A DNA stretch of 64,000 nucleotides. Source: a virus. The stretch lies in IMG/VR virus record IMGVR_UViG_3300024265_000035, positions 38,389 to 102,388 of that record, one strand, 5' to 3'. The notes under the pieces were generated by a model, which was not told the DNA's origin, searched no databases, and saw only the letters and a list, made by a program, of their open reading frames with translations. The position numbers and the translations under genes were made by a program. Below, one piece after another: positions 1-39,346 of this stretch; the stretch's first letter is position 1, and each line of letters begins with the position of its first letter.

Positions 1-384
1 GACTGTCATGTAGTTCATATCTGGGTTTATCGTGTACAGCTTTCCATATTCAGTTCGCTGAAAGCTGTTCCTGTTGGGAATGTATCTCTCCACGCTTCCA
101 TCACCAACTTTTCCAAGGTCATGGAAAAGCCCGACAAATGCAAGCTGGTCTTTAGCATAGCGGTCAGGACAAAGATCTTTAACCAGTCGCCAAAGGTTAG
201 CGACCACGAGGAGACTATGGTAGCATAAGCCTCCAGGATACGCGCTATGGAAGCTTTCCCGTGACGAGGCGGGTGCAGTAAAATAACTCTCCCCGATCTT
301 TCCATCCATCATCTCCTTAACTTTCGTACGTCTCGGCTCTGGAAATGCTTCAATGAGCGTCATTACTTTCTCGACATTCTCCAT
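1..384 (-). CDS. HD-domain phosphohydrolase, 3' end outside window
   Basis: Only the first 128 codons are inside the window; the reading frame is still open at base 1. I chose the ATG at 384, eleven bases after the stop of the upstream gene. Visible motifs are HSAYPGGLCYHSL (residues 46-58) and FHDLGK (87-92), the His and His-Asp pairs of the HD metal-dependent phosphohydrolase superfamily. Such enzymes hydrolyse phosphate esters of nucleotides or act as 3'-5' nucleases with an HD domain. It follows a DNA polymerase gene, which suggests a nucleotide-related role, but the substrate cannot be read from the sequence. A different frame in the same place (27-305) is a shadow. Confidence 0.72.
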   Translation of the reverse strand, partial: MENVEKVMTLIEAFPEPRRTKVKEMMDGKIGESYFTAPASSRESFHSAYPGGLCYHSLLVVANLWRLVKDLCPDRYAKDQLAFVGLFHDLGKVGDGSVERYIPNRNSFQRTEYGKLYTINPDMNYMTV

Positions 385-17041: not shown

Positions 17042-17926
17042 CTAACTAGGGAGCGTATAGTATGTCTTAAGAATTGCTCCTGGAGAGAAAATCTCATCAA
17101 GTTCATCTTCACTATCCACAAAACAAACGTTTTCATCTGAGAACTTGATATCAAAAGCAGTTTTTTCAGTTTGAATAGCAGGACGTGTACCCTGCGGGTC
17201 AAGTTGAAGGTATGTCGGAACTGTCACGTTGAAAGAATATTTCACGATTCTCTCTTGATCTGTGAATTCTTCGAAGTTCCCAGCGTCTGTGAGGCTAGTG
17301 TCGATTAATCCGATGAAGTAATAACCTTTGAGCGGATCTTTATTTTCGAATTCGACACCTTGACTCGACTTATTCTCGAACTTACTCCTGTAAAGAGGTG
17401 CGACGAATTGGTTCTGTATATCAAGTGCATTGAAGATTTTCTCAACAATCTTATTCATCTGCAGGATATACTGAGCTTGGATTGTTACTTCGTATGTAGT
17501 CACGAACCAGTCTGGCATCGGTATCTTCGTTAGTTCATAGACGATTTTTCCACTTCTATCCTGGTTCGGCAACGTGCGTGAACTGATTGCATTCTGCACG
17601 ACACTAGTCTTCTTGTCTACTCTCCTCGCAATTGTTAGGTTTGCTTGTTCAGTACCAAGAGCCATCATCGACCTATCACGTTCCATGGAAGTGCGTCTAA
17701 CACTAACGAGAGGGAGTATCAGAAGACCATTTTTGTCTCTCAGTCCGCGCTGATCTCGAGCTGTCGACCATCTCTCACCTGATGCGAAGATAACAGGTAC
17801 TTTCTTGAGTTCTCGAGTAGGCGTCTCAACGAATGCATCAACAGAACGATCGAACCAATCATAAATTGATTGATCGACATCTTCTATCGTAATGTCTTGA
17901 TATTCTGTTCTCTCGTCAGTTGACAT
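17042..17926 (-). CDS. Tail sheath stabiliser / tail terminator, gp15-like
   Basis: At 294 residues it matches the length of T4 gp15 (272). The arrangement also matches: an early strand KKVPVIFASGERWSTARD (compare VPITYASKEHFMMKL in T4), a central IVYELTKIPMPDWFVTTYEV and a helix ILQMNKIVEKIFNAL. Such proteins cap the finished tail so that it can join the head. It lies between the gp14-like and sheath genes, as in T4 where gene 15 is in the neck group. Its start overlaps the protease gene by 11 bases. Confidence 0.75.
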   Translation of the reverse strand: MSTDERTEYQDITIEDVDQSIYDWFDRSVDAFVETPTRELKKVPVIFASGERWSTARDQRGLRDKNGLLILPLVSVRRTSMERDRSMMALGTEQANLTIARRVDKKTSVVQNAISSRTLPNQDRSGKIVYELTKIPMPDWFVTTYEVTIQAQYILQMNKIVEKIFNALDIQNQFVAPLYRSKFENKSSQGVEFENKDPLKGYYFIGLIDTSLTDAGNFEEFTDQERIVKYSFNVTVPTYLQLDPQGTRPAIQTEKTAFDIKFSDENVCFVDSEDELDEIFSPGAILKTYYTLPS

Positions 17927-18785
17927 CTTCTTCTAATCCCAAATTGACAGGATCCTTTTCATTCCAATTTCGAAGTGCGTAATCAATGAATGGAGCTACT
18001 TTATCAATTCCAGGTCCCCAGCTGAGATGTGGATAATCCATGTTTGCTATTGTAAGTATAGCAACGAGCTTTCCTTTGTAGTAAACACCTGATCCACTCA
18101 TACCAGATGTTACAGGAATAGAAGTGTGGTAAAACCCGCTATATCCAAGAATTGTGCTCTTGTTGATACCTGAAAAGAACCCATAGACGACATTTACATC
18201 ATCTGCTCCCCAATTTCCCTTTGGAGCTCCAGCAGTCAATAGGTATGCTTGTCTTGGAGGGTGGGACGTCGCCACGATAGCTGGTTCACCAGCGAGTCCT
18301 GTAGTTTCCATTGCACAGATATCATTTGCAATATCTCTATAAAGCACTCTTGCTTTCAGTTTTCTCCCATCAACAGTCACGATATATTTTGCTATAGAAA
18401 GCACAATTCCTTCATTAACCAGATCTCCAACACTGAATGCATTAACACATACGTGACTAGCGGTCAATATTAGGCTCTCATTTACATCTTCATCAAGAGC
18501 AATAACTGTCCCCGTTCCTGACGATCCGACAATTGATTTATCTAGACCAAGTATGGTTAAGTCTTCTATGATAAAAACCGCATGTGAAACAAGTGCTCGA
18601 CGTTCTGCAGCATCTTTGTCAAACGATCCAATTGGATCTTCATGTGGCATCGTTATCGGCTGGATGTTTATCACATCCGGCTCGAATTCTATTGTAGCTT
18701 CTTCCTGTGTAGCTCGATACTCTCTAGAAGAGAGCAGAAATGCCACGCCACAAATAATAATCCAGTATTTCAACCATCTAAGCAC
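17916..18785 (-). CDS. Trypsin-like serine protease with N-terminal membrane anchor
   Basis: A chymotrypsin/HtrA-type protease of 289 residues. Residues 4-20 form one membrane segment or uncleaved signal anchor. The probable triad is His111 (SLILTASHVC), Asp155 (DIANDICAME) and Ser232 (TSGMSGSGV). There is no PDZ domain. The start is GTG 18785, chosen because GGGAG lies seven bases upstream; the nearby ATG is out of frame. It is placed between the gp14- and gp15-like neck genes. Possible roles include virion maturation, cleavage of a host envelope protein or defence against host proteases; none is shown by the sequence. Confidence 0.82.
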   Translation of the reverse strand: MLRWLKYWIIICGVAFLLSSREYRATQEEATIEFEPDVINIQPITMPHEDPIGSFDKDAAERRALVSHAVFIIEDLTILGLDKSIVGSSGTGTVIALDEDVNESLILTASHVCVNAFSVGDLVNEGIVLSIAKYIVTVDGRKLKARVLYRDIANDICAMETTGLAGEPAIVATSHPPRQAYLLTAGAPKGNWGADDVNVVYGFFSGINKSTILGYSGFYHTSIPVTSGMSGSGVYYKGKLVAILTIANMDYPHLSWGPGIDKVAPFIDYALRNWNEKDPVNLGLEEDVN

Positions 18786-18788
18786 CCA

Positions 18789-19298
18789 TTAACTCCCACA
18801 AGTTGACGGATCAACTGGGTGGGAATTATCAATGAATTGAGCGGAATCACTATGTATTTGCATTTGACCCTCACGTGATGGTGTACACCTGCACTGAGTC
18901 ATGATCTTCTCATTGACCTGACCAAATACAAGCTGTGGCTGCGTGACTGATGTTATCTCAAACACTACTTGACCAAACTCAATGAAGTCACCTTCTTTTG
19001 GTGAAACATTCCTGCCGATAAGTTCATCTGTGTGGAAATAAACATCAAGACTGTATTTTGAATCTAGTGTAAACTGTGTCGTATCGACGCCTGGATTATC
19101 ATAATTGACCAAAGCATTGATTTTCACAGGACTAAACCATATCTTATTTATGCTTTCCTGATACAACCTGTGTGAGACAGTGTGTTCTTCAGAGATTGCG
19201 TAGTAGATGACCTCTTGACCAACAAAGTTCTGGATGAGTTCTTTGTTTATCTTCGATATAAAATCGAGCTCTTTCGATGTTATGAATTTTCTAGAGAT
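18789..19298 (-). CDS. Neck protein, gp14-like, apparently starting at ATC
   Basis: The 169-residue product resembles T4 gp14, which seals the head and joins it to the tail. Conserved parts are GQEVIYYAISEEH and RLYQES (T4: ECYYVPRE and LIFGED) near the N terminus and SPKEGDFIEFGQVVFEI later. The first ordinary start codon in frame is TTG 19166, which would delete the conserved N-terminal block. Upstream of it the frame is open back to a TGA at 19316-19318 with no ATG, GTG or TTG. ATC 19298 is preceded by GGAGG at eight bases spacing and gives MSRKFITSKELDFI. I therefore annotate ATC as the start. Confidence 0.7.
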   Translation of the reverse strand: MSRKFITSKELDFISKINKELIQNFVGQEVIYYAISEEHTVSHRLYQESINKIWFSPVKINALVNYDNPGVDTTQFTLDSKYSLDVYFHTDELIGRNVSPKEGDFIEFGQVVFEITSVTQPQLVFGQVNEKIMTQCRCTPSREGQMQIHSDSAQFIDNSHPVDPSTCGS

Positions 19299-19672
19299 TG
19301 TTCTGGCCTCCGTATATCAAAAATTGATCCAGGTTCTTCAATATCGACATCAACGATTGTCGCTAATTTATATGCAAGAGCTCCAATATCTTGCTGTGAT
19401 ATTTTCATTAACATGTGTGGTTTACCGGTTGCGCCAGCATCATAAAAGAAACCCTTAAGGCCTTTTTCGAGTTCATCAATAACAACATCAATATCATTAT
19501 GCTCACGATGAATATCATTAATCAAATCTACTGTAGATTGCTTCAGATCATCTACTATCTCATGGTTAACATCACCTCGTCGATTTTTAACCCATGTATC
19601 GATCACGTCATCTACAATTGTAGATATTTCATCGTTTTCACAAAGTTTATATACTTCAGTAAGTCTAATCAT
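19280..19672 (-). CDS. Leader-bearing small protein (candidate internal head protein)
   Basis: A 130-residue acidic protein of unknown function. The start is ATG 19672, with GGGAG four bases upstream; the longer frame to 19747 overlaps the preceding gene. The N terminus MIRLTEVYKLCE matches the leader shared with genes at 21817, 22173, 22995 and 23282 and contains an (I/L)xE site (LCE, residues 10-12) of gp21-protease type. The rest is helical, rich in Asp and Val, with no known motif. The start of the gp14-like gene lies within its 3' end. Confidence 0.62.
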   Translation of the reverse strand: MIRLTEVYKLCENDEISTIVDDVIDTWVKNRRGDVNHEIVDDLKQSTVDLINDIHREHNDIDVVIDELEKGLKGFFYDAGATGKPHMLMKISQQDIGALAYKLATIVDVDIEEPGSIFDIRRPEQSLENS

Positions 19673-20201
19673 CACGCTCCCACCATCCAATGAGCTCGCC
19701 GCCCGCACCAGTATCTGGTGTATTGAATGCCGCAACTTCCATATCAAAACCTTCCAGCATTTCTTTTGTGACTGTCACTGCATGTTCTTCACGATCATTT
19801 CCATATGATGCCTTCTGCGGACATAAGCCCCACGGACATCCGTATATGATCCTCTTCACATTTTTCTTCAACATTTTGGTAACTTCACCGAGCCATTCTT
19901 CATTGAGAGCATGCTCAGGACCGTGATCCCAGTGTACAGTGTGCCACTCATCTTTCTCAAACATCTTATGCAAGTCTGCGATGTCACCGAGATGTTTTTC
20001 AATACCTTCTACATCAAATTGAGCCAGATTAGGTTTGAATATCTCAAGTAGACCGATCCTCTCCGCACCGAGCTTCTTTGCATAGTCTACCCAGTGGAGA
20101 TATGATCCCTTTCTCCATCCGACATATAGGAATGAAGAAGTAGGAGTAAATTTTTCTACGCTATTGTCCAACCAATCGTATGCTGGTTTATTGTGTGGCA
20201 T
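19665..20201 (-). CDS. Rossmann-like protein, possibly SAM-dependent methyltransferase
   Basis: The 178 residues suggest a class I methyltransferase-like Rossmann fold: SSFLYVGWRKGSYLHWVDYA (about 22-41) as strand and glycine loop, ERIGLLEIFKPNL (about 46-58) with a conserved acid after strand two, and WHTVHWDHGPEHALNE followed by KRIIYGCPWG. The glycine loop is imperfect (G-W-R-K-G), so catalytic activity is uncertain. It lies among the neck genes between gp13- and gp14-like genes, an unusual place for an enzyme. The substrate is unknown. Confidence 0.5.
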   Translation of the reverse strand: MPHNKPAYDWLDNSVEKFTPTSSFLYVGWRKGSYLHWVDYAKKLGAERIGLLEIFKPNLAQFDVEGIEKHLGDIADLHKMFEKDEWHTVHWDHGPEHALNEEWLGEVTKMLKKNVKRIIYGCPWGLCPQKASYGNDREEHAVTVTKEMLEGFDMEVAAFNTPDTGAGGELIGWWERDD

Positions 20202-20206
20202 TATTT

Positions 20207-21349
20207 CTATCCTACGTAAATTCCTAATGGCACCTGAGCCAACTGCCTATTCAAGTTTTCTGCCACCTCTGCTTCACGTGCAGCTATATTTTGATATGTC
20301 GTATCTTCCAAGAACTCTCTTATCTCTGACCTAAGTCTTTCCTGTTCAGTCCTTGCATCTGAAATAAGCTCTGGACCGTTCAAAGTGAGGTCACCGTTTG
20401 GAATCGGGATCGTGGAAATCTTTGAACGAATCTCACCTAACACTTCTTTCGATAATGCGTGAGTCATCTTCCAAATCCACGACCTTGAAATAGAATTCAA
20501 GTTGCAGTATTCAATGTTACTAAACGGTACATTCGATACGTTTGAAACCCCGTCGAGCTGTGCATCATCATAGTCCGGAACATAAGGGTCTTTCGGCAAC
20601 CAGTATGTAAAGTGGATTCGTGTTGCATTTGTCGGAGTCGGATACATCTTAATCACGTTGTTATTGATATCGTAACTAAACTGTGATCTCCTAACTCTAT
20701 TGGATGTTTCAAACTGCATTCCGCGAAGGATATCTTCCCAGACAGGAAGGAGATAGAATATAGTCTCAGGTGTGAATGACTCAAAGCTGAACTGATTATT
20801 CAGGAAGTTAACTGCAGACGTCGTACCGAAGAATCTATACTGCGTTAGTGGACTGAAGTGGAAGACTTCCTTAATCTGTGCTTTTCTTATTCGACCGTCT
20901 GATCCTGTGAGTGAGCCCGATATGATGACTTGAATGTCGTAGTCTTGCTGTCCGACCGTCGTTGTGAAAGAGCCACTGTGTAGCGTAAAAGAACCTCCGA
21001 CACCAGCAAGCTCTCCGTACGGTTCTGCCTGTCGACGCTGGAATTCAAGAAGATTCTGTGAGTACCTATTCTCTTGCCCGCCGCCAGCAACTGATCCAGT
21101 AAGAGAACCGGTTGGAGAACCGAGCACACTAGCTGCCACAGATTTATATTGGTACTGGTTAATGTATGCACCGTACTCGATTGCTGCTTCTTCGAATGAT
21201 GAATACACGTCAGACGCACTGAGTTCTACACAGATTTTTGATCCCCCAAGCTTCTTGCGAACCCAGTTCTCAACTTTGTCTGCGTCATCCTGGAAACAGA
21301 CGTCACTATCAAAAATACCGAAAGGTGTTGCGCCTACTGTAAATGCCAT
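20207..21349 (-). CDS. Neck / head completion protein, gp13-like
   Basis: A 380-residue protein placed between the capsid group and the gp14-like gene. It has the features of the gp13 head-closure family: an N-terminal helical region (DDADKVENWVRKKLGG, ASDVYSSFEEAAIEYG), a Gly/Ser-rich loop, then DILRGMQFETSNRVRRSQFS and a C-terminal helix pair (ISRSWIWKMTHALSKEVLGE). T4 gp13 (309 residues) binds beneath the portal after packaging. The family assignment is from pattern and gene order. Confidence 0.75.
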   Translation of the reverse strand: MAFTVGATPFGIFDSDVCFQDDADKVENWVRKKLGGSKICVELSASDVYSSFEEAAIEYGAYINQYQYKSVAASVLGSPTGSLTGSVAGGGQENRYSQNLLEFQRRQAEPYGELAGVGGSFTLHSGSFTTTVGQQDYDIQVIISGSLTGSDGRIRKAQIKEVFHFSPLTQYRFFGTTSAVNFLNNQFSFESFTPETIFYLLPVWEDILRGMQFETSNRVRRSQFSYDINNNVIKMYPTPTNATRIHFTYWLPKDPYVPDYDDAQLDGVSNVSNVPFSNIEYCNLNSISRSWIWKMTHALSKEVLGEIRSKISTIPIPNGDLTLNGPELISDARTEQERLRSEIREFLEDTTYQNIAAREAEVAENLNRQLAQVPLGIYVG

Positions 21350-21817
21350 TTATTTTAATCTTCCACCAAATGGGTCATAACCAAAATCTTTAAGTATCTC
21401 AGGTTCTCTACCGAGATGTATGTGACGTTCCCAAGTTTTACCGCCATCAATATCTGGATGTGCTAAGAATACAAAAACTTCACCTGAGTCCGGGTCAATT
21501 ACTTCAGTTCTAAACTTCTTTCCACCATGATCCCATAAAGTCACGTCTGTCAATTTTCCAAGATCTATACCTTCTTCTTCAATTTTTTCTCCAAAAGCAG
21601 TATGTAGCTGATTGCCGACTGTGCGATAGAAGTCGACATTTTGAATCTGCTTACCGTCGGTGGTGGCATCTGCATTCCCGACGCCGAGATCTTTTGATGT
21701 TAAACCAGCACTTGGAGGAGTCGGTCTTGCACGATGTTTTCCCTTTGGATCTTTAAACTTACCCCAAGGGAAGTTGGCTTCAAAAATTCGCTTGTATATC
21801 TCAGTGAGCTTGATCAT
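21350..21817 (-). CDS. Leader-bearing small protein (candidate internal head protein)
   Basis: 155 residues, starting at ATG 21817 with GGAGGG six bases upstream. The N terminus is MIKLTEIYKRIFEA, the clearest copy of the shared leader, with IFE at residues 11-13 followed by Ala as in T4 internal proteins. The body has a basic, Pro-rich linker (GKFKDPKGKHRARP) and a compact C-terminal domain (VTLWDHGGKKFRTEVIDPDS, FVFLAHPDID). No enzyme motif is recognised. It ends one base before the gp13-like ATG. Confidence 0.6.
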   Translation of the reverse strand: MIKLTEIYKRIFEANFPWGKFKDPKGKHRARPTPPSAGLTSKDLGVGNADATTDGKQIQNVDFYRTVGNQLHTAFGEKIEEEGIDLGKLTDVTLWDHGGKKFRTEVIDPDSGEVFVFLAHPDIDGGKTWERHIHLGREPEILKDFGYDPFGGRLK

Positions 21818-22173
21818 GGTCCACCCTCCCAAACCTTGTTTCGTTCATCCCACCAAAGATAATCTTCTCCAATTTCAGATTTCAAATTATCGTTATATGC
21901 ACGCCACTCACCTGAAAAATCTTCGAATTCCCATTTTGACGCATCTAAATCCATATTTGGATGGCCACTCCAATCATTAGCAAACTTGTCTGCAGCTTCT
22001 TTTTCTTTTGTTGTAAATTGATCCCATGTAAACACTGGAATCTTATCAGTCGATGATGTACCAGTTGATTGTTTTTGTTTTTCCCATGGGTTTGGATCAC
22101 TAGGTTTTATTGGCTGTTGCTTATCGAAATCCCATTGAAGCGTGGCTTCGTATAATTTGATGAGCTTGATCAT
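21814..22173 (-). CDS. Leader-bearing small protein (candidate internal head protein)
   Basis: 119 residues, starting at ATG 22173; the frame open to 22329 lies over the preceding gene in another frame. The N terminus MIKLIKLYEATLQWDF shows a short leader with LYE at residues 7-9 followed by Ala-Thr. The rest is polar, Trp- and Asp-rich (WDQFTTKEKEAADKFANDW, EWRAYNDN, YLWWDERNKVWEGG). No known family. The 3' end overlaps the next start by four bases (ATGATC...). Confidence 0.58.
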   Translation of the reverse strand: MIKLIKLYEATLQWDFDKQQPIKPSDPNPWEKQKQSTGTSSTDKIPVFTWDQFTTKEKEAADKFANDWSGHPNMDLDASKWEFEDFSGEWRAYNDNLKSEIGEDYLWWDERNKVWEGGP

Positions 22174-22177
22174 CTCT

Positions 22178-22555
22178 CTACTTAAATCTCCTCTCGAATG
22201 CGCCGAGTTCCCTGAGGAACACACGCCACTCACGAAGCACTCTTCCCATAGCGTGTGACTCTGCTGTATTGTAAGCTCTCTTGTCCTCTCTAAGGGCCAC
22301 ATCCTCAAGGATATCCTGCACTGTCTCATTGAGCTTGCAAGCCATCTCGCTGAGCTCCAGTTTCACTCGTGAGCCATGAGCCAGCTCCGCCACATACTGC
22401 CCAAACTTGCCGGAAGATTCGGTCTTATTGTGGTCGACCTTCTCCTTCGGTGACATCATTCCTGAGGGTTGTTCTGCAGCTCCTTGCATGCCCTTGATGT
22501 CTTCCGGGTCAATTTCAACAGAGATCTTAAATGCTTCTGTTAATCGTGTTCTCAT
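22178..22555 (-). CDS. Small helical protein with related N terminus
   Basis: 125 residues with ATG 22555 and a GAGAGAA ribosome site. The N terminus MRTRLTEAFKISVE is similar to the LTEIYK leader, but its Glu is not preceded by Ile or Leu at the P3 position, so protease cleavage is less convincing. The remainder is helical and charged (VKLELSEMACKLNETVQDIL, ALREDKRAYNTAESHAMGRV). No recognised family. It overlaps the preceding gene by four bases. Confidence 0.58.
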   Translation of the reverse strand: MRTRLTEAFKISVEIDPEDIKGMQGAAEQPSGMMSPKEKVDHNKTESSGKFGQYVAELAHGSRVKLELSEMACKLNETVQDILEDVALREDKRAYNTAESHAMGRVLREWRVFLRELGAFERRFK

Positions 22556-22995
22556 TTTTGTTCTCTCGCTTGAGCACTTCGTTTAAATTCTCTGCCCAGT
22601 TCATTTACAAATCGATAATCCAAGTCTCTAACAAAATTAGCTATTGATTGTTTTTCACGTGTGGCTGTTGCAAAGGCTTCCAGTATCCATGTAGCAGCAT
22701 ATTTTGCTTTGAGGTTGTACCATTTTTCAGGACCGTCATATACTAACCATGCTTTATCTGCTGTCCTAAGTTTTAAATCCTGAACAGTTTGATCAAGATA
22801 CTCTGAACCGTCTATATCTCTGCCTTCTCCGTATGCTTCCACTGAATCAGCAAGAAGTGTTATCAGTATCTCTCTTCCGTTGGACCATTTCTTTAGATGT
22901 ACACTGTTGGGATCGACATACTGATTAACAAGCTTCTCTATTCTTTTTGTTGTAATGTCTGACGCTTCAAGAAGATATAGACTTGTTAGTTTCAC
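22552..22995 (-). CDS. Leader-bearing small protein (candidate internal head protein)
   Basis: 147 residues, starting at GTG 22995. The N terminus MKLTSLYLLEASDITTK has the shared leader, with LLE at residues 8-10 followed by Ala-Ser. The remainder appears alpha-helical (IEKLVNQYVDP, AKYAATWILEAFATATREKQ) with a basic C terminus (ELGREFKRSAQAREQK). I do not recognise a family. It is part of the run of five small genes between the capsid terminator and the gp13-like neck gene. Confidence 0.58.
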   Translation of the reverse strand: MKLTSLYLLEASDITTKRIEKLVNQYVDPNSVHLKKWSNGREILITLLADSVEAYGEGRDIDGSEYLDQTVQDLKLRTADKAWLVYDGPEKWYNLKAKYAATWILEAFATATREKQSIANFVRDLDYRFVNELGREFKRSAQAREQK

Positions 22996-22997
22996 TC

Positions 22998-23282
22998 TTA
23001 TCTCGGTGTCTTTCCTACAACGCCAAGCAATTGCTTAAACTTCTGCTGCACTACGTCATCGACCCCTGCATGATCCAAGATAACAATTGCGAGCTGAATG
23101 AGCTCATGTTCGTTCATGTCCCTGACAATTGGACTCTTAAACATCAGCTTAATTGCTTTATCGATGCGTGTGCCATGATTGTCGGCATCTTTGCCAAAAT
23201 CTTTGTTAGCATCCTTATTGACATCTTTATCAGCTTCTTCTTCTTCTTCTTCTACGATTCGAAACACTTCATTCAATTTCAT
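22998..23282 (-). CDS. Leader-bearing small acidic protein
   Basis: 94 residues, starting at ATG 23282 because GGAGG lies eight bases upstream; the longer open frame to 23372 runs through the terminator hairpin. The N terminus MKLNEVFRIVEEEEEE carries IVE at residues 9-11, then an acidic run and repeats of the type DKDVNKDANKDFGKDAD. The C-terminal half is a helical domain (NEHELIQLAIVILDHAGVDD) that resembles other small phage assembly proteins. It is the first gene after the capsid terminator. Confidence 0.58.
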   Translation of the reverse strand: MKLNEVFRIVEEEEEEADKDVNKDANKDFGKDADNHGTRIDKAIKLMFKSPIVRDMNEHELIQLAIVILDHAGVDDVVQQKFKQLLGVVGKTPR

Positions 23283-23339: not shown

Positions 23340-23374
23340 CAAAAAAATGGTGCCGTCCGAAGACGGCACCATTT
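23340..23374 (-). terminator. Strong terminator after the major capsid gene
   Basis: On the minus strand an 11-base stem (ATGGTGCCGTC / GACGGCACCAT, 23372-23362 and 23357-23347) closes on a TTCG tetraloop within C(TTCG)G, a very stable loop, followed by TTTTTTT. It lies 27 bases after the capsid stop. Confidence 0.93.
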
Positions 23375-23400: not shown

Positions 23401-25119
23401 TTAGATTACGTTGAGGTCCTGCACCTGTACGGTTCCATAAAAGTCGCTTCGAACCAATTTCTTAGCGTACCTGGTCATCACACCCTTGCGAGGCGTGAAG
23501 TCTTCAGGTGCGTAGATCGTCGGAGTGACAATCAATGGCACGTAAGGTGCATACACAAAGCCCGTCTCGAGGAAGCTACCTCCCTTGTATCCAACAAGAA
23601 CCTTGTTCCTGATGAAGTACGGATCCTTGTAGACCGTGAACCTGTTGTTCAGGCTACCGACCTTTTCAGTACCGACGGTGAACTGGCTCTCCTTTGGGTC
23701 CATCGAAAGGTTTGGCTTATAGAGCACTGATGCTTCCAGAATCGTGCAGACATCCGGAGATGTGACGAGGAAGTTAGCTGCTCCACGAAGCGTCTTGCGA
23801 TGGATGTTGTTTGCGACGTCGATGACTGTCTCGATGAGAGTCTCGTACCACTCGCGAACAGTACCAGTGAAGGACGCACCAGTTGCGGTGTTGCCCGTGG
23901 TCTTATCCAGGAAGTTACCAGGCTTACGTGACCAGAAGAAGTTCGCGCCAGTTGCATTGTATAGCAAGTCAGCGAGAATTTCGCGGTCGATTTCAAGAGC
24001 GATCTGCTCTGAAAGCACCTGAGTAAGCTCAACCTCTGCATCCAAGTTCTGGTATGCAGCGAGGTCCTGAGCAAGCTCCGGAGTCCAGCGAGCCCTAAGC
24101 TTCCTGGTCTCAGCAGTCACACTGACTGACTGGATACGCAGGTCGATTTCTGGGATCGACGGAGTTGGGCTGGTAGCAAGGTCAGACTCGAAGACCGGGA
24201 GGGTCAACGTACCAGAAGTTCCACCTGTGAGGCTAGGATCAATCAGGTAACTGATCTTGATGGCGCCGTCAACACCGACACCTGCACCACCGAGCTGTGG
24301 CAGTGTACCACTTACGATGAATACAACATTATCACCGTCTCTTACCGTGTGGCGCCTGTAGACTACGACATCTGCTGTTGCATCTGTACCGAGTCTAATA
24401 GGAACACCGTCGCTCGTTGTCGTGAATGACGTTGACGAACCTGACACGGGTACCCAATGCTTCAAGCCACCGATAGAAACATCAGAACCTGAACCGACTA
24501 GAATCGAGCGTGCACTTGTAACAGTGAGCTTGATAAGATTCGTCACTGAACCTGAAAGATCAGGATCATGTGCGACGTCTGACAACGATGCAGTTGCTGC
24601 AGTGTAGTTGAATGACGCGACTGATACTCTTTCCCTACTTGAGAAGCTCGTACCGAAGTTATAGAAACCTCCAGTACCTAGGTTCTCAGTTCCAGGTGCT
24701 GTCTGGTCACCGAACAATGAACCACCGACCGTAAAGTCGTCGTTCTTATTGCCGGCCTTGACAGTATCAAACCTGTAGTCGAGGTAGAAGAGAAGTCCTG
24801 ATGGCAGACTCATTGGCTGCACAGAAACGAGCTCGTTCGCGATCAGACCACCGAATACACGGCGTACGATTGGGAATGCAACGTTCTGGAAACCGATAAT
24901 GTCAGCTACCTGTGACTGCTCGTTAAGAAGCTCGCCAGCCATGTTCTCGAGAAGAACGGCCATGTTAGACTTGTCAGCCTGGTTACGACTGTCGTCTAGA
25001 CCCTCGAGAAGACCGGTGACGGTCCACTTCTCAACTAGTCTCTTTACCTCAGCTTTACGATCATTCTTATAAATGTCCTTCGTAAGTGCTGCGAGGTTGA
25101 AATTAGCTTGCCTTGGCAT
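23401..25119 (-). CDS. Major capsid protein, gp23-like
   Basis: The 572-residue precursor of the main head protein. Similarities to T4 gp23 include EKWTVTGLLEGL near the N terminus (T4: NKWKPLLEGEGL), PIVRRVFGGLIANELVSVQP, and the late segments KARWTPELAQDLAAYQNLDA, EIDREILADL and YVPLIVTPT. Several (I/L)xE sites (LLEG about residue 38, LLEN about 57) are candidates for removal of the N-terminal peptide by the gp21-like protease. A strong ribosome site AAGGAGATACAAAAG precedes ATG 25119. The terminator at 23340-23374 ends the transcript. Confidence 0.95.
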   Translation of the reverse strand: MPRQANFNLAALTKDIYKNDRKAEVKRLVEKWTVTGLLEGLDDSRNQADKSNMAVLLENMAGELLNEQSQVADIIGFQNVAFPIVRRVFGGLIANELVSVQPMSLPSGLLFYLDYRFDTVKAGNKNDDFTVGGSLFGDQTAPGTENLGTGGFYNFGTSFSSRERVSVASFNYTAATASLSDVAHDPDLSGSVTNLIKLTVTSARSILVGSGSDVSIGGLKHWVPVSGSSTSFTTTSDGVPIRLGTDATADVVVYRRHTVRDGDNVVFIVSGTLPQLGGAGVGVDGAIKISYLIDPSLTGGTSGTLTLPVFESDLATSPTPSIPEIDLRIQSVSVTAETRKLRARWTPELAQDLAAYQNLDAEVELTQVLSEQIALEIDREILADLLYNATGANFFWSRKPGNFLDKTTGNTATGASFTGTVREWYETLIETVIDVANNIHRKTLRGAANFLVTSPDVCTILEASVLYKPNLSMDPKESQFTVGTEKVGSLNNRFTVYKDPYFIRNKVLVGYKGGSFLETGFVYAPYVPLIVTPTIYAPEDFTPRKGVMTRYAKKLVRSDFYGTVQVQDLNVI

Positions 25120-25154: not shown

Positions 25155-26510
25155 TTATGATACGAGGCCAGCGAGTTCCCTCTGACGTGCGAATTGTGTT
25201 CGCATGCTATTTCCATCCACAGATTCCCTGAGGACCTTTTGGTCCGGTGATCCGCTGGTAAGCCTTCGTTGAGCGTTTGGTCGGTTGCGACGGACTCTTC
25301 CTTCATTGAGGTGGAGCGCCGACTTGAACGAAGCCTTGAGAGCCTCGGACACGATGCGTGCTTCCCTGACATTTGCAGCCTCGTCAATCTTAGAGATGAC
25401 AAGCTTCTTCTGCTCATTGGTCAAGTTCTTACCGAAATCATTGAGGATTTCGTTTACATGGAGAACCTTTCTATTGAAGAGGTTAACTTCATGGATTTGC
25501 TTCTTTAGTTCCTTGATGACGCCAGCTGCCTGAGCGAACTGTGATTCAAGGTACATGACGTAGCGTGCAAGCTCCTGGTTTTCCTTGAGACCCTTTTCGA
25601 TTGCCTCTTTTACCTGGTAGTCCTGCGCCTGCGGTGGCTTGCCCTCTTCCCAAGGCTTATCACTATCTTCATCGTGAAGACCCTGTGAGTCATTTGCCTT
25701 GCGAGGATTCTCAGTTTCCCACTTAGAAGTATTATATGTGTCAGCGTAACCACTCGTTACGTTTGGGCTCCAATCAACGGAAGTTTCCTGCAGTGCTGCA
25801 GCAGACTTCATCACGTTTTCGTAAGCCTTCCTTAGACCTGCTTCGTCGATAGTGATTTCTTCGTCCATGTCTTCTTCCTCTGGTGCACCCTTTTTTTCAC
25901 CGAGTGTAGGTATTTGTGATTCGTCTTCACGATCATATTCTTCTTCATCGCCACCGAAGTCACCACCATAGTCACCCATCGGAGGCATGTCACCCATTTC
26001 AGGCAGTTCTTCATCGCCGCCCATATGGCCCATTTCGGGCAGTTCTTCGTCACCCATGCCGCCCATCGGAGGCATGCCGCCCATTTCATATGACATGTCC
26101 TGCATAGCATCCATGTCGCCTTCAGCACCGCGACGTGGCATTCCGCCGAGCTCTTCTTCATCACCCATTTCGGCAATACCAGGGAACATAGATTCAAGAG
26201 ACTCTTTCTCGAGTTCCTTCTCGTCCTTCTTACCCTTGTCGTCTTTCTTCTCGGCCATTGTGTCTTCTCCCTCGAGCTGCTTTCCTTCTTCAAATTCAGG
26301 ATTTTCGCCTCGGCCCTCTTCTCCTCGACGGACTCGGTCGACATCTTCTGATCTGACAGAATGATTGATATGCCTCTCGACGAGATTTCGAATAGATGAA
26401 GACATCTCCTCGACGAGCTTCTGTTTCGCAACCTCAACGGCTGCATTCTTAACCTGTTGCGCGTCTGCCACAGCTTCTTTAACGATGTTTCTACCGCTAG
26501 CTCCCATCAT
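25155..26510 (-). CDS. Prohead core scaffolding protein, gp22-like
   Basis: A 451-residue scaffold. The N-terminal 110 residues are helical, the middle (120-215) is a Met/Gly/Glu/Asp-rich low-complexity stretch, and the C-terminal part has the conserved core pattern LFNRKVLHVNEILNDFGKN, TNEQKKLVISKIDEAANVRE and VSEALKASFKSAL seen in gp22-type scaffolds next to the capsid gene. In T4 the core is digested by gp21 during maturation. It starts at ATG 26510 with GGAG four bases upstream; ATG 26507 is equally possible. Confidence 0.83.
   Translation of the reverse strand: MMGASGRNIVKEAVADAQQVKNAAVEVAKQKLVEEMSSSIRNLVERHINHSVRSEDVDRVRRGEEGRGENPEFEEGKQLEGEDTMAEKKDDKGKKDEKELEKESLESMFPGIAEMGDEEELGGMPRRGAEGDMDAMQDMSYEMGGMPPMGGMGDEELPEMGHMGGDEELPEMGDMPPMGDYGGDFGGDEEEYDREDESQIPTLGEKKGAPEEEDMDEEITIDEAGLRKAYENVMKSAAALQETSVDWSPNVTSGYADTYNTSKWETENPRKANDSQGLHDEDSDKPWEEGKPPQAQDYQVKEAIEKGLKENQELARYVMYLESQFAQAAGVIKELKKQIHEVNLFNRKVLHVNEILNDFGKNLTNEQKKLVISKIDEAANVREARIVSEALKASFKSALHLNEGRVRRNRPNAQRRLTSGSPDQKVLRESVDGNSMRTQFARQRELAGLVS
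25985..26065 (-). repeat. In-gene repeat in the scaffold gene
   Basis: Two close copies encode GDEELPEMG (one starting MGDEELPEMGHMG, the next GGDEELPEMGDMP), within a run of Met-Gly-Pro-Met repeats. The repeat keeps the reading frame and makes an acidic flexible linker. Confidence 0.7.
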
Positions 26511-32618: not shown

Positions 32619-33212
32619 CTACTTCCTCACTCGTATATCATTAAGAGCTCTATAGATCCTGTCAGCCTTGCTCCATATTCTCTTAACGTCAACTTCAACT
32701 GATTCATTCATGAACGCGCCAGGAGTTGATGGTTCACTAACTGCGTCAAAACAAATGAGCTGGTAGTCATCCTGTACAACGTCAGTACCTTCATTCGTTG
32801 ACTCTGTGCTTCCCACTCCCCTGCTCGACATTCCAATTCTGACGCCTGATTCAAGAAGTGACTCAAGGATCTTTCCTTTCGGTGTATTTAGAACTTCTAC
32901 CATCCCACGAACTACATCACCTTCCCAGAAGATTTCTCTGACAATGTGAGATGTCTTATCGAGTGCAACTGTTGATGTTTCAGGATGATCAAGTTCGCCT
33001 AGAGCTCTGTTCTCACGAACGACTTTCTCATAGTTCAATACTTCACGTTGAAGGATCTCATTTGGATAGATTCGACCATTCTGATTCTTCGTACCAGACT
33101 TCTGAAGAATTGCTGGCAGAAGAATTTTTCCACCATTCTTATTCCTTGACTCATTGATGGCATCGGCAGTACATTCAAGTGCATACCACTCTCTTAAAAG
33201 TGTCTTTTTCAT
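32619..33212 (-). CDS. Prohead core protease, gp21-like
   Basis: The 197-residue serine protease that matures the head. Conserved motifs are NQNGRIYP (about 44-51), GELDHPE with catalytic His76, and RIGMSSRGVGS with nucleophile Ser130 (or Ser129), as in the T4 gp21 / herpesvirus-like prohead protease family. It cuts capsid, scaffold and internal proteins after (I/L)xE in T4. The N terminus MKKTLLREWYALE may allow self-processing. The gene order portal, two core-like genes, protease, scaffold, capsid corresponds to T4 genes 20 to 23. Confidence 0.93.
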   Translation of the reverse strand: MKKTLLREWYALECTADAINESRNKNGGKILLPAILQKSGTKNQNGRIYPNEILQREVLNYEKVVRENRALGELDHPETSTVALDKTSHIVREIFWEGDVVRGMVEVLNTPKGKILESLLESGVRIGMSSRGVGSTESTNEGTDVVQDDYQLICFDAVSEPSTPGAFMNESVEVDVKRIWSKADRIYRALNDIRVRK

Positions 33213-35272: not shown

Positions 35273-38200
35273 CTAGGAAGAATTCTTAGTGCTGTATCCT
35301 CTATAGAGATTTTCTTTAAGAATGCTATTCGTTTTTCTAAGGTCATTTTCAAATTTCTCTACTCTAGCCAACGAAGATTGCACATACTGACCGATTGGGT
35401 CGGGTTCATTTGATTCTGTCACATTCTCAGAAAATGGGTTTGATATCATTCTTTTTATTGATCTCATATCGAAAGGATCAGATGCTGTCTGTTTCTCAGT
35501 ACCGAATACATGGTTAAACAAGTCTTCACTCGGGTCAAATAAGTCCTTACCCTTGTTAACTGATACCTCTGAGCTACAGCCGCGGCTTCCAGGGTTATGT
35601 CTTTCGTCACCTTCGCCAGACTCATCGATTTCACTTTTATCTTCTTCGCACTCATCTTCATCTTTTAATAGAATAGGTGCCATCGATAATGTTAGTTCAT
35701 CGTCATTCTGGTCATCGTAGTCGACGCCAGCTTCAAGTTCTTCTTCGCCGCCGAGTGATGTTGGCAGTTCTTCTTCTCCTGGTATTGCTTCACCGCCTGG
35801 CTCTGGTTCTGCTCCTGGTGCTGCACCTATGCTAGGTTCTTCTTCATCAGTCTCTGGTTCAGCAGTTATGCCATCAAGCTCCATCTGGAATAACTTATCA
35901 GCGCGCATCTCATCCTGCATCTCTTCAATTTCTTGTTTCGACATGCCAAGGATGTCACGCCATGTCTGTGTCTTGCTGACCATGCCCTCCTGGACAGAAC
36001 CTGCAATCTCAAGCTTTAGTCTCCATAGTTCAAGTTTCTGCTGCTCAGCAATCGTAGATGGATTAGCCATCTTAATATCATAATCGATTAGCTCGTTATC
36101 ACGGAATCCAAGAAGATAAAGATGGATAATCGCGATTTTCATGAGCTCTGAGAGCACAATCTTCTGAATTCGCTGAATTGTCCTTGAGAATCTAACATCT
36201 TCTTGCGCAAGTGTCGCTTTAGATCCCACATCACCCTCATATCCGAGGTACGCCTTTGGAATCTGAAGTGCTGCAAAGAGCTTATTCTGAATATACTCTA
36301 CATCTTCGATATCGCCAGTGAATTGACCACCCGGCAATGTTGTAATGTCTGAACCCTTCCCGTCTCTTTGGGGCAGGAAGTAATCTTCATCGACAGAGAG
36401 AGGGTTGTAGCGAAGATCGACACGTCCTGTGGCTGCATCAATAATCTTGCTTCTCTTCAGTCTATTCTGGATCTGCTCCATCTCTGCTGGCACATCTTCT
36501 GGTTTGACGTTACCAACTTCAATCTTAAAGACTCTCCTCTCAGGAGACCTCACGATCCTGTAGACTAGCATTGCATCCTCGATGAGGATAAGCTGACGCC
36601 AAATGCGTCGTGCTGGTTCAATGATGCTAGCACCATATGGCAAGAAGTTATCATTACCCAGAAGTCTAAAATGAATGATCTGCCATGCTTCCAGGATCAT
36701 GTTGCCCTGTGTCAGCCACCTGAATCGGAATGCGAACGGATTCTTTGGATCATAGCCTTCTTCCCTCTCTACCTCATTGATAGGAATCGGGAGCATGTTC
36801 AGAATTCCATTCTGCTCACTTGCATCCACGAACAATATGAAATCACCGTATTTGCACAGGTTTCTTACCCACGAATGCAGGTTAAACTCGATATTAAGAA
36901 TATCAAAGAACAGCGTCTCAAGAATATTCTTGATTTGTTGGTTATCAGACTCAATCTCGATCATGTGGCCTTTCTCATCCACATTCGTTACTTCATCTGC
37001 GTAGATATTCAGAGCAGAAGCAATCTCTGGAGTGTTATGTGATATTACTGAATCTGTTGCAAAGTTCTTGTATTTGTCAACTGTTAAATCATATACGTCT
37101 TCATGTCCATAATATTCAACAGACACAACCTTACAATTGTTGTAGTTTCTACAGAAGTCTGCAGTACTCTTATAACCGTGTTGTTTAACTCTACCTTTAA
37201 TTTTCATGGGCGTGACATCTAACTTTCTCACAAGATCCATGCCTTTCATGTTTGGTGTCCATGCATCACAGATCATTTGAAACGTTAGAGAATCATCCCA
37301 TCTTGGGTTTTTACTTCCTGCATTATCCCAACCGTGGTTTTTCCACTCGGAATTATATGTTTTCGCAAAGATCTCCCAATTAGCGAAACTATATCTTTTT
37401 AATTTTCTCTTTATAACATTGGGATCGGTATCAAAAACTTTGCATGTCTCATAGAGATTAAATCCGTTATTCTCAGCGGCTTGTAAAATCTTTGCAAATG
37501 TTATATCTCGACGCTCAGCAGGATTATTCTCCTTCATGAATTTCGAATGTTCACGTTTGAACTTCTCAATCCACTCACTATTCTTTTCGTAGTTCCACTT
37601 ATGTTCTTTGTTATAAATAATCCTATGAAGACGTGAATGATCATCACGATTCATTATCTCAAGATTTTCTGGTCTATTATCAAACTTTAAGAAATTCTTA
37701 TGATGGACTACTTCATTTTCTTCCATGATTCTATCAGAAGACCATTCAGCAATCATTTTATGTTCTGTCTGCCACCCGTTTTTCGTATCGGGTGTCATTG
37801 AATAGATATACTGATAGTGTTCTGTGTCAAATCTACCTTTAGGCGAACGAAATGAACGACGATAGAATGGCATCATAGAATCACCAGCAACTAATCCACA
37901 GATCTTCCTATAAGATCCGTCTCTTAACATGAGTCTATGGTCAGATGTTCCTATGATTTCTTTTCCATTATCGAATGTTACTTTCCACGCGTGTTCTGTT
38001 CTTGTTTTTCTAGCTTGCTTAGCTATAGCAGGAACAATCTGTCCAACTTCATGGTCATAAGAAAAAACAACAAACTCTTTCTCAAGACCATATTCTTCAG
38101 CTAGTTCTTTAATTGTCTTATATCCACCAGGTACAGCTATAAGTGTACTTCCTAGAATGCAATATTCCATTTCTGAGTAATCTGCATACCTCGCCAGCCG

Positions 38201-38392
38201 CTCGTACTGTCCATATGATGCAAGAGAGTTAACGTAGAGCGACGAGAGCTCTTTTCTATACGCGCGTGCAGTGCCCTGAGGCTCGTACATTTTCGAGCTA
38301 CTCGCGACCTTGTGGCGTACGACGGGACCGTTGCGGAACAGCCTAGTTAACTGAGCCCAGATACTCTCTTGTTGTCTAATCAGTGGTGGCAT
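35273..38392 (-). CDS. Portal protein (gp20-like) containing an intein
   Basis: The 1039-residue precursor. Residues 1-77 and 454-1039 form the 663-residue portal; residues 78-453 are an intein. Portal features are NIYADEVTNVD, HFRLLGNDNFLPYGASIIEP, RIVRSPERRVFKIEVGNVKP and LPGGQFTGDIEDVEYIQNKL followed by LQIPKAYLGYEGD, the standard T4 gp20 core. It forms the 12-fold ring at the head vertex used for packaging and ejection. The C-terminal 180 residues are acidic and flexible. Splicing must be efficient for a working portal. It precedes the head genes and follows a zinc-ribbon gene by eight bases. Confidence 0.93.
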   Translation of the reverse strand: MPPLIRQQESIWAQLTRLFRNGPVVRHKVASSSKMYEPQGTARAYRKELSSLYVNSLASYGQYERLARYADYSEMEYCILGSTLIAVPGGYKTIKELAEEYGLEKEFVVFSYDHEVGQIVPAIAKQARKTRTEHAWKVTFDNGKEIIGTSDHRLMLRDGSYRKICGLVAGDSMMPFYRRSFRSPKGRFDTEHYQYIYSMTPDTKNGWQTEHKMIAEWSSDRIMEENEVVHHKNFLKFDNRPENLEIMNRDDHSRLHRIIYNKEHKWNYEKNSEWIEKFKREHSKFMKENNPAERRDITFAKILQAAENNGFNLYETCKVFDTDPNVIKRKLKRYSFANWEIFAKTYNSEWKNHGWDNAGSKNPRWDDSLTFQMICDAWTPNMKGMDLVRKLDVTPMKIKGRVKQHGYKSTADFCRNYNNCKVVSVEYYGHEDVYDLTVDKYKNFATDSVISHNTPEIASALNIYADEVTNVDEKGHMIEIESDNQQIKNILETLFFDILNIEFNLHSWVRNLCKYGDFILFVDASEQNGILNMLPIPINEVEREEGYDPKNPFAFRFRWLTQGNMILEAWQIIHFRLLGNDNFLPYGASIIEPARRIWRQLILIEDAMLVYRIVRSPERRVFKIEVGNVKPEDVPAEMEQIQNRLKRSKIIDAATGRVDLRYNPLSVDEDYFLPQRDGKGSDITTLPGGQFTGDIEDVEYIQNKLFAALQIPKAYLGYEGDVGSKATLAQEDVRFSRTIQRIQKIVLSELMKIAIIHLYLLGFRDNELIDYDIKMANPSTIAEQQKLELWRLKLEIAGSVQEGMVSKTQTWRDILGMSKQEIEEMQDEMRADKLFQMELDGITAEPETDEEEPSIGAAPGAEPEPGGEAIPGEEELPTSLGGEEELEAGVDYDDQNDDELTLSMAPILLKDEDECEEDKSEIDESGEGDERHNPGSRGCSSEVSVNKGKDLFDPSEDLFNHVFGTEKQTASDPFDMRSIKRMISNPFSENVTESNEPDPIGQYVQSSLARVEKFENDLRKTNSILKENLYRGYSTKNSS
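37034..38161 (-). mobile_element. Intein with HNH endonuclease in the portal
   Basis: The intein starts at Cys78 (CILGSTLIAVPGG) and ends at His452-Asn453, followed by Thr454 as the first residue after splicing. Block B is GTSDHRLML, block F VYDLTVDKYKNFATDSVIS, block G SHN then T. A homing region is inside: VVHHKNFLKFDNRPENLEIM and RDDHSRLH, the HNH core with DNA-binding helices following. It joins EMEY and TPEIASAL. Hint elements at both ends suggest a functional protein-splicing element. Confidence 0.93.
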
Positions 38393-38836: not shown

Positions 38837-39346
38837 CTACGATTTTACCATGTAACCCTTGATATAATTAGCAGGAATATTAGAAGGATACATTACCTCT
38901 GCAAGTTCCCAATATCTAGGGTTTCCTTTGCCTTTCTTTTTCCATGTCTCATGGTCATAGATCCTGGTATCTCTCTTTGATGTAACGAATTTATCCCACA
39001 TGTTCGACGGAAGCTGCACTACAATAACAGCTCTCTCACTCATCGGTGCGCTCTTGACAGCTTTAGAGCGCCTGAAATCCCTCTCGCCACCTGCTCCTGC
39101 CATTGCAGCATAGCCGCGTGCAGTAAACGGATCTAACGCTAAATAAACTCCGACACCTTTTGCTCCATGGCCAGCCTGAAGTCCTCCCTTTGATATCTTA
39201 TCGAGATTGCTAATGTGAGTACCATGAAATAAGATACCAGTGTCCTGCCACCAAGCGTTCTCATCGAACGACCATGGCATCTCCCTCATGTTTAGTTCAT
39301 CAAACTTCTCAATGATGAAGATCTCGTCAAGTCGTGGCCAACTCAT
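38837..39346 (-). CDS. ADP-ribosyltransferase-like protein with leader
   Basis: The 169-residue product starts at ATG 39346 inside the terminase stop (ATGA overlap). Residues 39-82 show the NAD-binding core of the H-Y-E type: ILFHGTHISNLDKISKGGLQ with His41, then GVGVYLALDPFTARGYAAM with Tyr68. The final conserved Glu is probably in WELAEVMYP. The N terminus MSWPRLDEIFIIE resembles the leader and has IIE at residues 11-13. T4 injects the head-borne ADP-ribosyltransferase Alt; this protein could be a small counterpart. The target is unknown. Confidence 0.75.
   Translation of the reverse strand: MSWPRLDEIFIIEKFDELNMREMPWSFDENAWWQDTGILFHGTHISNLDKISKGGLQAGHGAKGVGVYLALDPFTARGYAAMAGAGGERDFRRSKAVKSAPMSERAVIVVQLPSNMWDKFVTSKRDTRIYDHETWKKKGKGNPRYWELAEVMYPSNIPANYIKGYMVKS

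Follow-up and report, generated by a model that had tools for sequence, protein, structure and literature searches.

The shared N-terminal leaders of a set of otherwise unrelated small proteins in an uncultured distant relative of phage T4 are probably capsid-targeting propeptides of the T4 type, private to the lineage in sequence and carried by cargo that would be packaged in the head and injected. The window analyzed here, 64,000 nucleotides in all, covers positions 38389-102388 of a virus record 102,388 bases long; coordinates prefixed G000:C1 refer to the whole record. The head genes and associated elements of the window were as follows.

23401-25119, minus strand: gp23-type major capsid protein (PF07068, E = 1.7e-78)
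25155-26507, minus strand: probable scaffold protein, gp22-like by position, with NIVKE/AVA near the N terminus and 14 internal [IL]xE triplets
32619-33212, minus strand: gp21-type (S77) prohead protease (PF03420, E = 7.8e-29), as the first-pass annotation had proposed
23345-23374, minus strand: strong intrinsic terminator (13-bp stem, U tract, z = -4.2)
20207-21349, minus strand: neck or head-tail adaptor protein (phrog_211), inside the run of tagged genes and without a leader

The tagged genes had been described as a run behind the capsid gene, within 19280-23282. Their position was borne out, with the terminator at 23345-23374 separating the capsid gene from the tagged genes downstream of it, but the run is interrupted by the adaptor gene and by 19665-20201, from which the leader is also absent, and the set extends beyond the limits given. 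A promoter scan of the DNA returned matches no more numerous than in shuffles. Two further features were observed in the window, both on the minus strand. From visual inspection of its translation (MEYC/ILGSTLIAVPGG ... HHKN ... VISHN/T), the portal-like gene at 35273-38392 appears to contain an intein bearing a homing endonuclease of the HNH type, and 17916-18785, between the neck and sheath genes, encodes a trypsin-like peptidase (PF13365, E = 2.5e-12) with a hydrophobic N-terminal segment.

The leader set consisted of the following genes.

22998-23282, minus strand: 94 aa, MKLNEVFRIVE/EEEEE, predicted cut after E11; body free of internal [IL]xE
22552-22995, minus strand: 147 aa, GTG start, MKLTSLYLLE/AS, predicted cut after E10
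22178-22555, minus strand: 125 aa, weak leader MRTRLTE/AFKISVE
21814-22173, minus strand: 119 aa, MIKLIKLYE/AT, predicted cut after E9
21350-21817, minus strand: 155 aa, leader MIKLTEIYKRIFE/AN
19280-19672, minus strand: 130 aa, leader MIRLTEVYKLCE/ND
38837-39346, minus strand: 169 aa, outside the run first noted, leader MSWPRLDEIFIIE/KF, body resembling an ADP-ribosyltransferase (ART), HGTH...GVYLALDPFTARGYA
G000:C1:35879-36526, upstream of the window: leader MITLKEIYIIE
G000:C1:36526-36984, upstream of the window: leader MIRLKKIYRRLWE

The five N termini on which the original observation was based (genes starting at 19672, 21817, 22173, 22995 and 23282) were recovered as quoted, all on the minus strand and each with an (I/L)xE triplet. 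They conform to a common leader, L-x-x-[ILV]-[YF]...[IL]-x-E, in which the [IL]xE ends at residue 9-13. The bodies, which had been called unrelated, proved to be so by BLAST except for a 14-residue extension of a shared module in one pair. In four of the five run genes the longest mechanical open reading frame starts further upstream; the leader starts are preferred because purine-rich sequence precedes them and because the other starts overlap the gene before or, in the case of the one at 23372, lie within the 13-bp terminator hairpin. The run-gene bodies gave no convincing family match, tblastn searches of 50,697 phage records with the 21350 and 22552 products returned no homologue, and searches of viral contigs with three single proteins (21350, 38837 and the upstream ART-like protein) returned no matches. 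The two upstream tagged genes sit 1.4-2.5 kb before the window start and are directly adjoined by a tubulin/FtsZ gene (TubZ-like, G000:C1:34686-35882, PF00091, E = 1e-10). A protein encoded at G000:C1:38194-38772, partly within window positions 1-384, starts MENVEKVMTLIE/AF and is a possible further leader missed by the pattern.

The leader was evaluated statistically against 104 genes of at least 60 aa called in the 102-kb record with our own gene caller. Four pairs of N-terminal 16-mers scored 32 or more; 500 sets of 16-mers taken from protein interiors gave at most three. The seven top-scoring pairs, which stood above the internal and shuffled controls, all fell within the leader set. The leader pattern matched eight genes, where internal windows predict 0.09, and added three genes to the set (38837-39346 and the two upstream of the window); the regular expressions were written post hoc from these leaders, a source of bias that the controls lessen without eliminating it. 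An [IL]xE triplet was present at residues 8-14 in eight of the nine leader-set genes and in 7 of the 95 others (p = 2e-7, a value that is not independent because the leaders resemble one another). Chance resemblance of the leaders is excluded. The variable length and spacing of the leader, with the cut falling anywhere from residue 9 to 13, were counted against the cargo reading. In IMG/VR, DNA encoding exactly MKLTEIY occurred in 28 stretches against 73 for the scrambled peptide MKTLEIY, with 10 gene starts each. Because MKLTEIY thus begins genes no more often than its scrambled version, the leader is taken to be lineage-specific and not common elsewhere. A tblastn search with the short leader as query gave no matches.

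The genes at 21350-21817 and G000:C1:36526-36984, 23 kb apart, match over residues 1-29 only (62% identity, E = 4.7e-12), and their bodies beyond this module do not match (E = 7.3). They had been entertained as full paralogues, an assignment dropped given that the first 29 residues alone match. DNA identity is ∼0.3 upstream of the start and again from codon 26 onward, and this collapse on both sides indicates a leader that moves between genes like a cassette. The module runs ∼16 residues beyond the predicted cut, so that part of it would remain on the mature protein, a point counted against the cargo reading.

T4 gp21 cleaves after L/I-X-E (PMC9026906) and becomes active when it loses its first nine residues, MNEPQLLIE (PMC9958956). 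The N terminus of the window protease, TLLRE/WYA, corresponds to T4 LLIE/TWG at this self-cleavage position after residue 9, and LLxE was found there in most of the gp21 orthologues collected, a few having LLNS, LLTD, LLCS, LLIN or LLID. At the position of T4 gp23 E65, the gp23 relatives displayed have [ILV]xE, most often as ELLRE with A or S next. The predicted maturation cut of the window gp23, ELLNE/QSQ after E67, aligned with T4 FLTE/A (E65), and two relatives with insertions ahead of the site keep LxE (LME, LNE) followed by A. Conservation of the motif at both the self-cleavage and the gp23 maturation sites makes it very probable that the window protease cuts at [IL]xE, the same motif that ends the leaders.

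Relatives that carry gp23 were found to possess repeated leaders of their own, namely MKITKxQLxxIIxEE (13 matches in G012 against 0.13 expected, six in G005 and five in G002), MKLLLENWxxYLxE (seven in G011 against 0.21 expected) and MKIKPLIFE (eight in G007 against 0.57 expected), and leaders appear to be particular to each lineage. Two leader classes occurred within one genome in G005, G011 and G012. T4 IPII and IPIII were recovered as a positive control, and two N-terminal clusters, the YTGIVEW proteins of G007 and the VGDLV proteins of G012, were set aside as non-leaders. The MKITKxQLxxIIxEE class was also above chance in 66 loci not used for the patterns (14 matches against ∼1), mostly in genes before the capsid gene. 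Among 62 tagged proteins of the relatives, Pfam identified two ART-PolyVal domains, one of them weak, together with a superoxide dismutase and a GNAT acetyltransferase. Two relatives carry tagged genes in tandem downstream of the capsid gene, five with MKIKPLIFE (L030, 18244-21566) and four with MKITESQLRKIISEE (L009, 16629-18595); these runs are apparently hypervariable cargo islands. The literature, in which most subscription papers lay outside coverage, yielded no description of these leaders.

If the tagged proteins were instead prohead core or scaffold parts of the gp67/gp68 kind, they would be bound to the core by the leader and destroyed by the protease rather than delivered. This reading, which we regard as unlikely, accounts for the location of tagged genes in the head operon and for leader-like N termini on other head-region proteins (26799, MKLTIEELKSVIRK; 28593, MVEMIRVIVAEE). 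It fits 22178-22555, for which the first-pass annotation had noted a weaker match. The weak leader stood, but membership of the cargo set is unlikely, since six internal [IL]xE triplets (5.1 per 100 residues) against 1.7 expected make this product more like a degraded core protein, and we regard it as probably of the gp67/gp68 type rather than retained cargo. By the same measure, T4 gp22, gp67 and gp68, which are degraded in the prohead, have 3.5-5.9 sites per 100 residues, compared with 0 for IPI-III and 1.0 for Alt; the other eight tagged bodies have 0-1.7 and so resemble T4 cargo. In addition, these bodies are lineage-private and two are ART-like, which fits effectors better than scaffold. 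After the predicted cut most of the proteins would be acidic (pI 4.4-6.9), as opposed to the basic T4 internal proteins, and this was counted against the cargo reading.

It is more doubtful still that the leader docks the proteins on the neck, baseplate, tail or a phage or host factor and stays uncleaved. The gene at 19280 and those just upstream of the window do have neck, tail or polyvalent-protein genes in their vicinity, and the shared module of the 21350/36526 pair continues past the predicted cut, but eight of the nine leaders end in a motif conserved at known gp21 sites, and the neck, sheath and tube genes lack the leader motif. Least probable of all, and only barely credible, is that the resemblance reflects chance or old homology of whole proteins: the leaders are short, hydrophobic and charged patterns are common and the regular expressions were post hoc, yet the internal and shuffled controls, the unrelated bodies and the independent repeated leaders in relatives and in unused loci all stand against it.

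Two tagged bodies offered a clue to function. The 38837-39346 product matched PF00644 (PARP) with E = 0.004 and 17.1 bits, the sole such match in the genome. It shares 34% identity with Vibrio-phage proteins across residues 18-167 (E = 1e-13), one of which gives a weak ART-PolyVal match itself (E = 0.07). Residues H41-G42-T43, Y79 and E150, candidates for the ART motif H-G-[ST] ... Y ... E, are invariant in three homologues and may have catalytic roles. An AlphaFold model (pLDDT 36) was uninformative on an ART fold. Because the PF00644 score lies under the curated cut-off of 26.7, the protein looks ART-like but is not filed as an ART member. The tagged protein encoded at G000:C1:35879-36526 matched DUF2441, a family of the ART clan (PMC7955679), with E = 7e-4, also under the curated cut-off, and likewise looks ADP-ribosyltransferase-like. 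In relative G007 the one ART-PolyVal match falls on a tagged gene (E = 4.6e-16), and a profile built from two ART sequences found one locus. The Vibrio-phage ART homologue that was read starts without a leader, which indicates that leader and body are separable; its neighbors begin MAKFSHIVNE, MALFKQLVE and MPSFKCIVE, the last of these with a fused InPase domain (E = 8e-34). At L143 (7992-8822), an ART homologue continues in frame into MKSFKEFSEG, which is similar to a T4-type leader; either the two are fused or an internal start codon lies within the frame. In T4 the ADP-ribosyltransferase Alt is injected (PMC5512222), and by analogy the two ART-like cargo proteins likely modify the host at entry.

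A single capsid-targeting sequence (CTS) on diverse internal proteins is established in T-even phages and has been suggested to be a general means by which T4-like phages package various proteins (PMC3012670, PMC9026906). In IPIII the first 10 residues suffice for packaging, with residues 4 and 7 weighing most in targeting (PMC9026906). As in T4 IPI-III, the set described here combines a short N-terminal leader ending in [IL]xE on unrelated small bodies with a gp21-type protease, few internal sites and i/i+3 hydrophobic spacing. It differs in leader sequence, in leader length (9-13 residues), in its mostly acidic bodies and in its extent (at least eight genes at three or more loci), and no sequence homology of the bodies was found. 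Judged on its residues, the leader would act like a CTS and forms its own sequence class, since it is not homologous to T4 MKTYQEFIAE, with which it agrees only in hydrophobic spacing and in the [IL]xE at its end, and is nearer to the N terminus of Alt, MELITELFDE (L-x-x-E-[IL]-[FY]...E), the T4 sequence closest to the window leaders. The 38837-39346 product likewise joins such a leader to an ART-like body, but has 169 aa against 682 in Alt, and its body belongs to another family (PARP-like, with Vibrio-phage homologues).

Polyvalent proteins (Iyer et al. 2017, PMC5512222) share the repertoire of ART, InPase, RNA-ligase-like and nucleotidyltransferase domains and are also predicted to be packaged in the head and injected, whereas the tagged proteins here are mostly small with a leader on each. 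Upstream of the window, G000:C1:26120-33643 encodes a polyvalent protein of 2507 aa (InPase, E = 2e-33; nucleotidyltransferase, E = 7e-14; RNA-ligase-like, E = 1e-4). It starts MSLSYLDKIIRE/Q, resembling leader class A of the relatives. The ejection proteins of the giant phages phiKZ and SPN3US also have propeptides cut after glutamate by a gp21-family protease, but these often exceed 100 residues and end in S/A-x-E, compared with 9-13 residues and I/L-x-E here.

The proposal that the set is head-packed cargo was supported by the available sequence tests, from which we infer docking, packaging, cleavage, retention, injection and host targets of the tagged proteins. The leader, hydrophobic and probably helical (L at 3-4, [ILV] at 6-7, then Y/F), would dock each protein on the scaffold core during prohead assembly. 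Once the shell is complete, the gp21-type protease would cut after [IL]xE, with loss of the leader, and the mature bodies, a cargo of at least eight proteins, would remain in the head and be injected with the DNA. Relative to the T-even CTS, the set represents a device of the same kind that belongs to a distant lineage and is distinguished by another leader sequence, more genes, several loci and mostly acidic bodies. We consider the chances evenly balanced that T4-like phages outside the T-evens use lineage-specific CTS dialects, sometimes two per genome (MKITKxQLxxIIxEE and MKLLLENWxxYLxE), to mark with a movable tag the members of large and rapidly changing repertoires of injected effectors, the effectors including ARTs and single-domain versions of polyvalent-protein enzymes.

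In this phage there are eight candidates, of which the two searched are orphans in the phage records, and the relatives add dozens more. Such proteins are candidate anti-defence and host-takeover factors, whose functions are difficult to find by other means since the bodies lack recognizable relatives. If the cargo reading is true, the virus proteins delivered at entry would be readable from genome sequence by their address tag, and, should the wider reading of lineage-specific dialects also be true, the tag would give a general means of recognizing virion-delivered effectors by sequence alone.
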